A DNA stretch of 33,642 nt, from positions 1 to 33,642 of the forward strand of contig CANQPB010000024.1 in assembly GCA_947625615.1 (NCBI GenBank), given 5' to 3'. The notes beneath the pieces were generated by a model. The model made no database searches. It was not told the DNA's origin and saw nothing but the letters and a program-made list of their open reading frames with translations. A program made the position numbers and the translations under genes. The DNA comes from an uncultured Clostridia bacterium. GTDB taxonomy: Bacteria > Bacillota > Clostridia > Oscillospirales > Ruminococcaceae. This document shows, piece after piece, positions 15,850 through 33,642 of the stretch. The stretch's first letter is position 1; the number at the start of each line of letters is the position of its first letter.

Positions 15850-16166
15850 AATTTTGCCTCCTTAAGATTACTTTAATGGGGGCTTTCCCCGCCTGTCCGG
15901 CGGGTTTGTCTGCAACCCTTACACGCTGCCGTGTGTTTCCTCGTTCTCCATAAAAAACACCGGAAATTCCATGTTTTCCGGAAGGCCAGAAACACCGTCA
16001 AGCAATCGGGCTTTTTGCCGCTACGCCTATTCGGCGCCGCAAGACGCGGTCAATAATGCCGGTGCAACCGTTGCAGCCGCCCAATTTTAAATCGGACATA
16101 CTCCGTCAAAATTACCCGCCTGTGGCGGCAACCTTTGACTTCAACGCATATCTTCGCAGTCACGCA
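15850..16166 (-). promoter_or_regulatory. S10-operon leader with candidate attenuator
   Basis: About 315 nt separate the predicted transcription start from rpsJ. On the minus strand the leader contains a CCGCC/GGCGG hairpin (16116-16128), a terminator-like hairpin at 15952-15981 (7-bp CCGGAAA/TTTCCGG stem, two bases, then six T), and a 6-bp CCCGCC/GGCGGG stem (15888-15904) close to the ribosome binding site. The T-run can instead pair with AAAACA in the hairpin loop region, so two alternative folds exist. No ORF with a ribosome binding site is visible in it. Confidence 0.5.
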
Positions 16167-20468: not shown

Positions 20469-21941
20469 TTACCAGACGGTTCCCGAGGTTTCAAACGCCT
20501 CTACCCTTGCGTTGAGGTCGTCAAGATAATATTGCAGCTGATCCGCCGTGTTCTCCTTGAGCTGAGCCCAGGTGCTCGTCGCGGACTGCATGCCGTTTCT
20601 CTCGATGGTCTCGATGGCGCTGCCGACCTGCGAACCGAGGCCCTGCTCGTCGTAGGAAATGAGGACGTTCTCGCTTCTGTTGGCGAGATCGACGCAGAGG
20701 TCGTACATATCCATCATCTCGTCAGTCCAGAGGTATTTCTCTATCTTCTGGAGCCTGTCTATCGACATGACGGTCGGGTCTATCGCCTTGAATCTGTCGC
20801 AGGCGGCCAAAAGTGCCACGCCCTCGGGATTCTCGGCGTTCTTGACTATGCAGTAGCCCATCGGGTCGGATTCGACGTACTGAATGCCGTCGCCGTCGGG
20901 ATCGCGGGGCATCGGGACGAACATGAGCTCGTTCTCGGTGACGTCGGCGTATTCGGCGGAGATTTCCTCAACGGTGCCGGTGATGTGGTAGGGGCCGCCG
21001 CAGCTGAAGAGGAGGTCGCCCTCCTTAAGGCCGTCGCCGAAATCGGCGGCAGAGGAATTGCCCTGGTTGCGAACCTGCCAGCCGTGGTTGTAGTAAGGCC
21101 AGATGCACTCGTTCTTGTTGAGATCGTAAAGAAGATTGCCGGCGCGCTCAAGTCTCGGATCGTCAAGATTGGAGACGAATTTGCCGGTGGCGGTGTCGAG
21201 CGAGACTACCGGCAGACCGCAGGAGCGCTGGAGCGACTTCGAGTAGAACCAGCCGTCGAGGGCATAGCGCTCGTCGTCGGCGTCGGAGAAGGAGGTGGCC
21301 ATGTCGTAGAATTCGTCCCAAGTCCAGTCGTTGTTGTAGAAGAGCTCGGCGGGATCGTCGAAGCCGTATTCTTCGATGATTCTGCGGTTATAGGCCAAGA
21401 TGGAGCCGAAGTAGAGATCGGTGCAGAGAAGATAGACGTCGCCGCCGATGGAGAAGTAGGTGCGCATATAGTCGGCGATATCGGCCCAAAGCGGGTCGTC
21501 AAGGTCTATGTAATCGTTTATGGGAGCAAAGGTGCCGTGGAGGGCGTAGTAGGGGAAGTTCTCGGTCTCGCCGTTGTAGAAATCCGGCGGGGTGCCGCCG
21601 AGCATAAGGGTGGCCAGGCGGGAGAAGCGCTCGTCCCAGGTGCACTCTATGTATTCAAGGTCGCACCCGTATCTCTCGCGGAAGGTGAAGAAGCCGGTGT
21701 TGACAACTTCGCCCTCGGAATAGTTGTGGAACGTGTCGAACCAGCTGTACCACTTAACGGTGGTGCCGGCGCCGGGGGCGGCTTCCGGATCGGGAAGATA
21801 GATGCCCGCGGCATTGAGTATGGCTTCCGCGTCCTCGGTGGACAGGGTAAGCTCAATAGGCTGACGCCTCTGCGCGCCGCAGCCTACAAGTGCGGCTATC
21901 ATCAGAAGCGCAAGAAAAACTGCCGATAGTTTTTTGAACAT
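20469..21941 (-). CDS. Extracellular solute-binding lipoprotein, paralogue 2
   Basis: This encodes 490 residues. The lipobox ends at Cys21 (ALVGCGAQRR), followed by the identical LTLSTEDAEAILNAAGIYLP block. It shares with paralogue 3 the ECTWDERFSRLATL region, an EYGFDDPAELFYNNDWTWDE-type motif, the NLDDPRLER motif and ACDRFKAIDPTV. The RDPDGDG loop lies near residue 344. It is expected to be membrane-anchored and to bind a solute, probably a saccharide, but this is inference. It has its own promoter (22025-22053) and terminator. Confidence 0.85.
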   Translation of the reverse strand: MFKKLSAVFLALLMIAALVGCGAQRRQPIELTLSTEDAEAILNAAGIYLPDPEAAPGAGTTVKWYSWFDTFHNYSEGEVVNTGFFTFRERYGCDLEYIECTWDERFSRLATLMLGGTPPDFYNGETENFPYYALHGTFAPINDYIDLDDPLWADIADYMRTYFSIGGDVYLLCTDLYFGSILAYNRRIIEEYGFDDPAELFYNNDWTWDEFYDMATSFSDADDERYALDGWFYSKSLQRSCGLPVVSLDTATGKFVSNLDDPRLERAGNLLYDLNKNECIWPYYNHGWQVRNQGNSSAADFGDGLKEGDLLFSCGGPYHITGTVEEISAEYADVTENELMFVPMPRDPDGDGIQYVESDPMGYCIVKNAENPEGVALLAACDRFKAIDPTVMSIDRLQKIEKYLWTDEMMDMYDLCVDLANRSENVLISYDEQGLGSQVGSAIETIERNGMQSATSTWAQLKENTADQLQYYLDDLNARVEAFETSGTVW

Positions 21942-22053: not shown

Positions 22054-22169
22054 TACGCTAAATTTACAAAGCCGTGCAGAAAATTTCAGCACTTTTAACG
22101 AAAAAAGCCGCCATTCACATATCGCAGCTGTCAGGTTTACCATAGGGGCGATATCTTAGCGACTATTTT

Positions 22170-22474
22170 ATTTGCCCCGCTTCGCGCGGCAAATCGGGGA
22201 AAACCCTTTGCAAGGTTTTCCCCGTGCCCTTTTCCGTATGCGAGGCGCCAAAGGCGCCTCGCCGGGGAGACCCCCGGCGAGGGTCTCCCCGCGAAAAAAC
22301 TGTCCACCGGACAGTTTTTTCTCCCTATCCTGCGCTTCGCTTCGCATTAACCGGAGCGTGCCTGCTCGGCACGCTCCGGGGGAATTCCGCGATTGCGATC
22401 GCGGCTCGTAGGCTCTGCCCCCGAGACCCCCGCGGCCTTTTGAAAAAGGCCGGCGAAACCTTTTTTGTTTTCGC
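22170..22474. repeat. Dense cluster of perfect inverted repeats
   Basis: Nine hairpins follow each other in about 305 bp. Approximate spans and stems: 22170-22194 (7 bp), 22196-22223 (10 bp, GGGGAAAACC arm), 22241-22261 (9 bp, AAA loop), 22264-22290 (10 bp, GGGGAGACCC arm), 22294-22320 (12 bp, AAAAAACTGTCC arm), 22351-22379 (12 bp, CCGGAGCGTGCC arm), 22387-22404 (7 bp), 22433-22452 (9 bp), 22453-22474 (6 bp). All stems are perfect; spacers range from 0 to about 30 nt. It lies between the terminator of paralogue 1 and the promoter of paralogue 2. The reading frames crossing it are Arg/Gly-rich and unconvincing. It looks like a composite palindromic repeat element of unknown function. Confidence 0.85.
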
Positions 22475-22488
22475 ACCGTCCGTGGCAT

Positions 22489-22518
22489 AAAAAGGAGCAG
22501 GACATAAAATCCTGCTCC
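22489..22518 (-). terminator. Terminator of the 22536-24038 gene
   Basis: Minus strand: a 9-bp perfect stem (GGAGCAGGA/TCCTGCTCC) with a 7-nt loop and five T following. It adjoins the palindrome cluster. Confidence 0.9.
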
Positions 22519-22535: not shown

Positions 22536-24038
22536 TTACTGCGCGGCGGCCGTGTCGGTGACAGTCTGGTAGCCGTTGGCTATGTAGGCGTCGATCTCGG
22601 CGTTGAGATTGTCGATCTCGTATTGCAGGGTGTCGCCCTGGCCCTCCTTGATCTGCGCCCATGAAAGCGCACCGCCGGCCGAAGTGGCGTGGCCGTTGTC
22701 GTCTACAGTCGTGATTATCGAGCCTATCTTCTCGCCGAGGCCGCCGTTCGAGTCGTCGGCATAGGCGATGATGATGTGGTCGGGATCCGCATTCGCGAGC
22801 GCATAGCACTCGTCGAACATTTCAAGCATCTGCTCGTTCCAGTAGAGCTTCTTCTCATACTGAACGCGGTCAATGTTATCAACGGTCGGGTCGACGGTCT
22901 TGAAGCGGTCGCACATGGCCAAAAGTCCTACGGCCTGAGGATTCTGAGCGCCCTGGATAACCGCATAGCCCGAAGCGGTGGCGTCCATGTAGTAAATGCC
23001 GTCGCCCTGAGGATCGCGGGGCATGGGAACGAACATTATCTCGTTGTTCTTGGTGTCGCCCCAGACGGCAGTGACGGACTCATAGCCGTTAGAGGTGAAG
23101 CCCCAGGCGCCTATGGGCTGGAAGAGGCAGAGGCCTTCCTTCATGCCGCCGCCGTCGGTGCCGTTGCGGAGCGTCCAGCCGTTCCACCATGGGTAGCAGG
23201 TCTCGGCCTTGTTGAGATCGTAAAGAATAGAAGCCGCGCGCTCAAGCCTCGGGTCGTCAAGGTTGGATTCAAACCTGCCGGTCTCGGGGTTAAGGCTTAC
23301 GGTGGAAATGCCGGTCGAGCGCATTATGGCGCGGCTGTAATACCAGCCGTCGAGGGCATAGCGATCCTGGTCGGCGTCGGTGAAGTCGTAGCACATCTCG
23401 GCGAATTTATCCCAAGTCCAGTCGTCGTTGGCATAAAGCTCGGCGGGGTCGTCGTAGCCGTACTCCTCGATAACTCTCGGGTTGTAGGGGCAGACGATGT
23501 TGAACATCATGTCATAGATGATGAAGTATGTCCTGTCGCCGATGGAGAAATATTTCTTTGCGTATTCACCCATGTCGCCCCAAAGCGGATCGCTGTAATC
23601 GACATAGTCGTCGATAGGCTGGATCATTCCTCTTAAAGCTCTCAGCGGGAAGATATCCGCCGAGCTGGGGGTGAAGTCGGGCGAGGAATCGGCCAAAACG
23701 AGGTTGGCGAGGTGGGTGTAGCGCTCCTCCCAGGAGGGGAACTCTATCCACTCGGCGTCGCAGCCGTATCTCTCTTTAAAGGTGAAGAATCCGAGGTTGG
23801 TGAGCTCGTCTTCGGAGTACTGGTAGAAGTCCCAGTTGGAATACCACTTGACGGTGGTGCCGGCGCCGGGCGCTTCTTCAACGGTGGGAAGATGAATGCC
23901 CGCGGCGTTGAGTATGGCCTCCGAGTCCTCGGTGGAAAGGGTGAGTTCAAGGCGCTCACGCCGCTGGCTGCCGCAGCCTATCAGCGCGACTACCATGATG
24001 ACGACAAACGCCACTGCCATAATTCTTTTGATTTTCAT
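22536..24038 (-). CDS. Extracellular solute-binding lipoprotein, paralogue 1
   Basis: This encodes 500 residues. The lipobox ends at Cys22 (VALIGCGSQRR), followed by LTLSTEDSEAILNAAGIHLP, two changes from the block in the other copies. It shares TTVKWYSNWDF, FFTFKERYGCD, EYGYDDPAELYANDDWTWD and NLDDPRLERA with paralogue 2, its closer relative by eye. The Asp-rich loop is altered (RDPQGDG). It is the most upstream of the three on the minus strand and has its own promoter and terminator. Substrate unknown; no transporter partner gene in the window. Confidence 0.85.
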   Translation of the reverse strand: MKIKRIMAVAFVVIMVVALIGCGSQRRERLELTLSTEDSEAILNAAGIHLPTVEEAPGAGTTVKWYSNWDFYQYSEDELTNLGFFTFKERYGCDAEWIEFPSWEERYTHLANLVLADSSPDFTPSSADIFPLRALRGMIQPIDDYVDYSDPLWGDMGEYAKKYFSIGDRTYFIIYDMMFNIVCPYNPRVIEEYGYDDPAELYANDDWTWDKFAEMCYDFTDADQDRYALDGWYYSRAIMRSTGISTVSLNPETGRFESNLDDPRLERAASILYDLNKAETCYPWWNGWTLRNGTDGGGMKEGLCLFQPIGAWGFTSNGYESVTAVWGDTKNNEIMFVPMPRDPQGDGIYYMDATASGYAVIQGAQNPQAVGLLAMCDRFKTVDPTVDNIDRVQYEKKLYWNEQMLEMFDECYALANADPDHIIIAYADDSNGGLGEKIGSIITTVDDNGHATSAGGALSWAQIKEGQGDTLQYEIDNLNAEIDAYIANGYQTVTDTAAAQ

Positions 24039-33526: not shown

Positions 33527-33580
33527 GCTTGCTCCAAAAAGAAAAGGCACCTGACGGTGCCTTTTCTTTTTGGAGCAAGC
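33527..33580. terminator. Bidirectional terminator palindrome overlapping tRNA-Gly 3' end
   Basis: A perfect 25-bp inverted repeat (arms 33527-33551 and 33556-33580) has a 4-nt TGAC centre. The core (GGCACC/GGTGCC) flanked by A/T-rich runs works as a terminator in both directions. It ends the kinase transcript and the tRNA transcript. The outer ten bases of the far arm are the last bases of the tRNA gene, including the CCA end. Confidence 0.85.
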
Positions 33581-33642
33581 GACGGGAATCGAACCCGCAC
33601 GGTCAGCTTGGGAAGCTGAAGTTCTGCCACTAAACTACGCCT
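33571..33642 (-). tRNA. tRNA-Gly (CCC), missing the first two bases
   Basis: Read on the minus strand: acceptor 5' strand from position 3, D stem GTTT/GAAC, anticodon stem TCAGC/GCTGA with loop TTCCCAA, so the anticodon is CCC (Gly, GGG codons). T stem GCGGG with TTCGATT loop and CCCGT follows, then acceptor CGCTTGC, discriminator T, and encoded CCA. The first two bases lie beyond the window edge; pairing predicts G and C. Confidence 0.92.

Follow-up and report, generated by a model that had tools for sequence, protein, structure and literature searches.

The window analyzed here, a stretch of 33,642 nucleotides (33.6 kb) from an uncultured Clostridia bacterium, carries two minus-strand genes of solute-binding proteins at 20469-21941 and 22536-24038 (both PF01547, the latter scoring under the family cut-off), which are separated by a 300-bp chain of hairpins. 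The chain is non-coding; in plus-strand order its ten hairpin slots are called A, A2, B, C, D, E, F, G1, G2 and H (Table 1). Most stems were obtained with an inverted-repeat search, in which slot A was 91% complementary and the stem of slot H covered 22433-22452, and slots G1 and G2 were identified directly from the sequence letters. Seven of the ten slots are perfect in this copy (A2, B, C, D, F, G1 and H); A has one mismatch, G2 has two and E consists of a 4-bp stem only. The original prediction of nine or more perfect palindromes was thus right about the array and slightly too high in number, as nine is reached only if the terminator of the neighboring gene and an alternative stem are counted. 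That alternative stem (22257-22282) belongs to a pair of mutually exclusive stems predicted at 22261-22290, which the inverted-repeat search recovered at 22257-22291; it depends on slot B, which is missing from several copies, and stem C is kept in the type I copies (see below) printed from 12 relatives. Two modules had been credited with terminator form, which was recognized by eye. The hairpin at 22494-22518, formerly regarded as the terminal module and gene terminator, does look like the terminator of the neighboring minus-strand gene but lies outside the repeat, since no BLAST match of any other copy passes 22478.

Table 1. Features of the hairpin chain in the window (positions of the window).
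Feature	Position	Strand	Basis
Whole repeat copy (ends approximate)	22166..22466	-, folded strand probably minus	own-genome copies align to this span; mismatch bias
Slot A hairpin, ATTTGCC..GGCAAAT, variable loop	22170..22194	-	inverted repeat; L086 has ATTTACC..GGTAAAT
Slot A2 hairpin	22195..22224	-	inverted repeat; absent from short copies, A joined to C at shared CGGGGA
Slot B hairpin, 3-nt loop highly variable	22240..22262	-	inverted repeat; loops compared
Slot C hairpin, conserved loop CCCGGCGA	22263..22291	-	inverted repeat; pair counts; loops
Slot D hairpin, apex GTCCACCGGAC (minus strand GTCCGGTGGAC)	22293..22321	-	inverted repeat; stems, pair counts, genome scan
Conserved linker and slot E (TCCTGCGCTTCGCTTCGCA)	22322..22349	-	alignment A1
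Slot F hairpin, loop TGCTC (its inverse, GAGCA, in four other copies)	22351..22379	-	inverted repeat; loops
Slot G1 hairpin, loop TGCG	22387..22404	-	sequence; stems across copies
Slot G2 hairpin, two mismatches here	22405..22425	-	sequence; stems across copies
Slot H hairpin and constant right end GGCGAAA(A/C)CTTTT	22433..22466	-	inverted repeat; copies compared
Hairpin of neighboring gene (22536-24038), probably its terminator, outside the repeat	22494..22518	-	inverted repeat; matches of other copies end by 22478

Folding of 22165-22470 as RNA gave z values of -10.6 for the plus and -9.4 for the minus strand, and none of 100 shuffles folded as well on either strand. Strong hairpins (stem of at least 9 bp, loop of at most 10) numbered 12 in the whole window, eight of them inside 22195-22518, where the last one, 22494-22518, no longer belongs to the repeat; each of ten block-shuffled windows had zero to two. 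The hairpin chain is hence confirmed as real and beyond chance. Elsewhere, the window holds an S10-Clostridia leader (16074-16152) and a tRNA-Gly gene cut by the window end (33571-33642), at the 3' end of which a perfect 25-bp hairpin (33527-33580) has the longest stem among the strong hairpins listed.

In the genome from which the window was taken (G000, 2.17 Mb in 58 contigs), BLAST revealed at least 40 copies of about 200-310 bp, a lower bound, as 40 of 130 candidates were scored, and a single-copy oddity is thereby ruled out. According to a rough codon-score gene caller trained on the 12 genes of the window, none of the 40 copies overlaps a called gene, and the neighboring genes are divergent around 12 copies, both on the minus strand around eight, both on the plus strand around eight, convergent around six and unclassified around six, so that among the 34 classified copies no clear preference for an orientation emerged. 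A position between a terminator and a promoter, as it had been described for the window, is therefore not general. No Pfam family was detected in two open reading frames crossing the repeat and the copies differ by small indels, on which grounds a protein-coding reading was rejected, in agreement with the non-coding character claimed at the outset. The right ends of the copies are constant, followed by divergence, and the left ends are variable, being either truncated or marked by a T run ahead of slot A. Slots A2 and B are absent from six short copies (L011, L013, L015, L016, L021, L029), joined at the repeated CGGGGA. Several copies lie at contig ends (L003, L011, L018, L020), and the repeat therefore probably breaks assemblies.

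Other repeats were seen, by eye, to be inserted into copies of this mosaic repeat, some of them within hairpin loops. An insert of about 100 bp (ACGCTGCGCTCGG..CTATAA) lies within GGGGNAACC..GGTTNCCCC hairpins in four copies (L017, L024, L031, L032), a repeat starting with GCGCAACGCGAAAG replaced parts of slots C or F-H (L018, L025, L027, L033-L036), and a MITE-like insert whose terminal repeats (TGCACGCGGGGTTTTGT..ACAAAACC..TTGCA) are imperfect occupies slot G2 in L014 (two copies), L102, L110 and L113. A second palindrome-rich family of the same genome (L027:1100-1372 and L138-L167; 40 of 95 candidates scored) is often situated left of the mosaic repeat; it holds CCCCCTCTCCC..GGGAGAGGGGG.CAGGGGGTGAG, a sequence resembling the BoxC/TM triplex motif.

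Across the copies, C, D, E, G1 and H have almost invariant loops and linkers. The stems occur as alleles whose two arms vary jointly, and these alleles are combined differently from copy to copy. With allele classes defined by us for the own genome (two each for C, D and G1, three each for F, G2 and H), 28 of the 40 copies could be typed at all six slots and displayed 15 combinations; the other 12 were not fully typable. The four-gamete test was passed by 13 of 15 slot pairs, the exceptions being the neighbors C-D and G1-G2. One copy (L031), read by eye, begins slot D as allele D1 and finishes it as D2, the outcome expected of a crossover within the slot. D1 has an A6-stem-T6 form, and in D2 the stem is kept and the T run lost. 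The many copies with reshuffled modules that a BLASTN search had been expected to uncover, had the array been a structured repeat family, were thus found.

In alignment A1 95.3% of cells pair, and 131 cells are changed on both sides versus 45.5 in shuffles, a value attained by none of 500 shuffles; the covariation score of 0.279 (shuffles 0.110, sd 0.008; partners slid along the alignment 0.041-0.109) was likewise reached by 0 of 500. Pairs with a both-side change (9 versus 7.4 in shuffles, 35 of 500 as high) and further pair types (19 versus 19.8, 414 of 500 as high) do not stand out, so that three of five measures of paired-column covariation lie beyond all 500 shuffles and two do not. These measures indicate that few positions vary, but that both sides change together where they do, and to this extent the covariation anticipated by the original prediction is present. 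Template switching could yield the same covariation as a structured RNA. Slots D, G1 and H show four mismatches in 2214 pairs, and 25 of 94 copies carry a bulged base after the apical stem of D.

The remaining mismatches show a strand bias. In a strict count, which admits each combination of slot, place and pair a single time, the kinds A.C, C.T, C.C and A.A on the plus strand make up 32 of 44 mismatches (p 0.004), corresponding to G.T, G.A, G.G and T.T on the minus strand, although the events are not fully independent. A laxer count, in which inherited mismatches were counted more than once, gave 50 of 64, with C.T 25 versus A.G 4, A.C 18 versus G.T 6 and C.C 6 versus G.G 0, and the A.A/T.T class running in the opposite direction (1 versus 4). 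Control hairpins outside the element at the same loci leaned in the same direction, but less (23 of 36; C.T 8, A.G 2, A.C 5, G.T 7, C.C 5, G.G 4, A.A 5, T.T 0), and three copies of relatives left out by the filter (L078, L080, L117) have T.G on the plus strand in D, which amounts to one opposite event. Judging from this bias it is probably the minus strand which folds, a lean rather than proof. On that strand wobble pairs are rare: 14 of 1143 cells at fixed columns (1.2%), and 23 of 4901 pairs (0.5%) according to a finder that recognizes Watson-Crick pairs only and hence undercounts. In 14 tRNAs of the fetched loci 21 of 307 pairs are G.U (6.8%), and a wobble several times rarer than in tRNAs points to maintenance at the DNA level.

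The loops behave in two ways. The loop of slot F reads TGCTC in 30 copies and its reverse complement in four (L022, L028, L029, L036), and in genome G022 the loop of slot B is GAA in three copies and TTC in two. Loop inversion together with changes in both arms is described as a signature of template switching (PMC8794818), and the inverted loops of F and B, two slots of lower conservation, are taken here as its mark. The loop of D in the 40 own copies is ACC in 36, ACA in four and inverted in none, and no inverted D loop was present in 92 typed loops overall, where the relatives were partly chosen by that very loop. All 28 own copies (of 40) whose C loop could be typed have it forward; the H loop is forward in 65 of 94 copies and was not seen inverted in any. 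In L078, L080 and L117 slot D reads ACAATTC-ACC-GGATTGT, a new stem with the old loop. As no inverted loop of C, D or H was observed, these loops appear to be held by something else, most simply by recognition on the folded strand.

The same ordered hairpins were observed in 13 of 31 genomes of the genus. By BLAST 16 of the 31 genomes matched, 13 of them with many matches (the own genome, G017-G027 and G029) and three weakly (G001, G002, G028), and 15 gave none. A covariance model of the E-D-C core (R1), built from 50 of 93 copies, matched 14 genomes, with 73 matches in the own genome (a count which may include both strands, since the core is palindromic), 9-67 in twelve others and one in G028, and had no match in 17. 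For the family as a whole, under stricter filters, it gave matches in 62 of 395 genomes, from 24 of 126 genera. The distant copies display two architectures sharing D and often also G1, G2 and H: type I, the architecture of the window, and type II, in which the C hairpin (GGGGACGCCCT..AGGGCGTCCCC) and the linker are different ones and to which L038 of the own genome belongs. Between genera the linkers stay alike while the stems change. The site itself is not shared, as a scan with the D pattern found no copy at the position of the window in the six nearest relatives of gene 20469-21941 (69-76% amino acid identity), and G022 has one copy on the other side of the gene; no empty site was encountered in a near-identical strain. 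Neither phage nor plasmid collections contained a match to the repeat, and no viral contig contained a 22-base stretch of D.

The apex of D ranges more widely. A scan of the order found its pattern ACWGTCCRCHGGACWGT in 87 of 394 genomes, representing 47 of 168 genera, and the reversed pattern was absent among the matches listed. Outside the genus 38 loci were read: seven are type I, 20 include a gene for tRNA or tmRNA within the sequence retrieved, one is seemingly coding and ten are unassigned, several of the latter with T-arm-like sequence. D hairpins accompany tRNA genes at L219/L223, L220, L221, L224, L225, L226, L228, L233, L234, L241 (tmRNA), L244, L245, L248, L251, L252 and L254-L258. 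In the loci read closely (L220, L225, L244, L254, L255 and L258 among them) a short unit beyond the gene's 3' end contains the hairpin, which lies between halves of the gene's own T arm; L234 instead repeats the 5' end of tRNA-Leu, and tandem units exist at L223, L224, L226 and L233. In 19 of the 20 tRNA-linked units it is the tRNA sense strand that reads GTCC-GGT-GGAC, and the same strand seems to fold in the mosaic repeat. The apical D hairpin was also noted in 49 viral contigs (L259-L307) in several unrelated contexts, some with T-arm-like flanks, many of them being other repeats or possibly coding; a control pattern, similar to and not an exact reversal of the apex and hence rough, gave none. 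We tentatively suggest that there may be an order-wide class of mobile hairpins in Clostridia, in which the D apex (ACAGTCC-ACN-GGACTGT) would be portable, recognized on one strand and shared by the mosaic repeat (types I and II) and the T-arm units of tRNA and tmRNA genes, with one enzyme reading the folded single strand and the arms matched by template switching.

With regard to a mobilizing enzyme, the Y1 transposase (PF01797) is absent from the own genome and present in seven of 13 element-rich genomes versus one of 18 others (Fisher p 0.004, which ignores kinship and includes some fragmentary hits), an association that may be due to kinship alone. An IS200-like (Y1) mobilizer was rejected, as the own genome has none and the ends of the relatives' loci are, by eye, unlike those of the repeat. 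IS200-like elements with hairpin ends, some adjoining terminator T runs, were recorded at L130-L136 in G022, G023 and G027. In 23 copies with both ends the summed longest shared words, 145 versus 139 when shuffled (p 0.135), gave no overall sign of target duplication, in a test limited by T-rich ends (L021 and L031 share 10 and 12 T-rich bases), and the left (TTTTATTTGCC) and right (GCGAAAACTTTT) termini are by eye not complementary.

Taking together the intergenic copies with their ordered slots and constant right end, the reassorted alleles with matched arms, the strand bias of mismatches and the inverted loops of F and B, all of them observed directly, we read the stretch in the window as one copy of a dispersed, non-coding, non-autonomous repeat with the behavior of mobile DNA, which would act when folded as a single strand, most probably the minus one, and give this reading a probability of about 0.5. 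The copies would exchange modules by recombination with one another, and template switching or the repair of hairpins would keep the two arms matched, a process placed at the DNA level because wobble pairs are rare. The fixed loops of C, D, G1 and H and the linker E may be recognized by a protein or enzyme on the folded strand, as the want of inverted C, D or H loops suggests, and the repeat would putatively spread via a single-stranded intermediate with the enzyme supplied in trans. The preference voiced in the original prediction for a structured or mobile repeat over coding sequence is borne out by the at least 40 copies, the reassorted modules and the frequent changes on both sides.

The same folded minus strand could also be an RNA: once transcribed, its hairpins would serve as structured non-coding RNA or as an untranslated element, perhaps returned to DNA in the manner of a short retroelement. 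This would account for the strand bias of mismatches and for the D hairpin on the tRNA sense strand, and one constant and one variable end would fit reverse transcription. We nevertheless consider it rather unlikely, for wobble pairs amount to 0.5-1.2% compared with 6.8% in tRNAs, and the genes around the 34 classified copies are divergent in 12 cases and otherwise of mixed orientation (8, 8 and 6). Moreover, no Rfam family attained its gathering score within 22166-22466, the best below it being RNAI with 34.3 of 47 bits; such sub-threshold matches were judged to be chance, and a known RNA was rejected.

Template switching, which forms part of the preferred reading, might by itself maintain neutral, self-correcting palindromes spread by chance recombination and devoid of a recognized function. 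The lack of inverted D loops (with the reservation that relatives were partly chosen by the loop), the H loop, forward in most copies and inverted in none, the C loop, forward wherever typed, and the linkers that stay alike between genera while stems change all argue against so simple an account, which we hold to be improbable even though it explains the matched arms, the multi-base changes in both arms and the inverted and very variable loops of F and B. A role as bidirectional terminators or insulators between operons seems very improbable: the D1 allele has the appropriate form and several copies adjoin terminator-like hairpins (by eye), but D2 has dispensed with the T run and retained its stem, the neighbor in the window has a terminator-like hairpin of its own, and copies also occur between divergent genes.

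The related genomes offer the same hairpins with alternative stems in hundreds of natural replicates. They make it testable whether bacterial palindromes are kept matched by selection on structure or by template-switch correction, and what moves palindromic repeats without an obvious transposase. Found in many related gut-type Clostridia, the repeat is a good natural system for studying how hairpin repeats spread and stay paired; no Rfam family covers it, and it can also be misread as RNA genes or as coding sequence.

No description of the repeat, of the D apex or of tRNA-linked palindromes was found in the published literature as far as covered, i.e., in titles and the beginnings of abstracts, nor did the Clostridia passages of RepRanger (PMC12306157) and of a stem-loop survey (PMC2267715), located by word search, describe the repeat. 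Hairpins produced by template switching show multiple compensatory changes and loop inversion as seen here, but lie in rRNA and microRNA genes and not in a dispersed repeat (PMC8794818), and the intrastrand triplex repeats TM_ECO/BoxC are likewise G/C-rich conserved palindromes of many bacteria, characterized by a fixed triplex pattern CCCTCNCCC..GGGNGAGGG..GGGNGAGGG (PMC4666352).

By the features tested, the repeat is neither a REP/BIME element nor a MITE, the two models to which it had initially been likened. REPINs are grouped with the former. As with the GTAG and CGTC superfamilies of REP/BIME (PMC3733652), there are many dispersed, composite intergenic palindromes whose stems vary between families; in contrast, the 40 own copies by eye have no conserved GTAG or CGTC at the hairpin foot, up to ten different hairpins follow each other in order, and no Y1 transposase was found in the own genome. 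With MITEs the mosaic repeat shares that it is short, non-coding and dispersed, but its ends are not mutual inverted repeats and target duplication was not found overall. The repeat thus lacks the tag and transposase of the tagged REP families and the terminal repeats and target duplication of MITEs, and it would seem to work like a bacterial interspersed mosaic element. BOX, NIME, ERIC and other composite intergenic repeats are likewise built of modules between genes with optional middle modules; what sets the present repeat apart from them is that each slot has several whole-stem alleles, which reassort.
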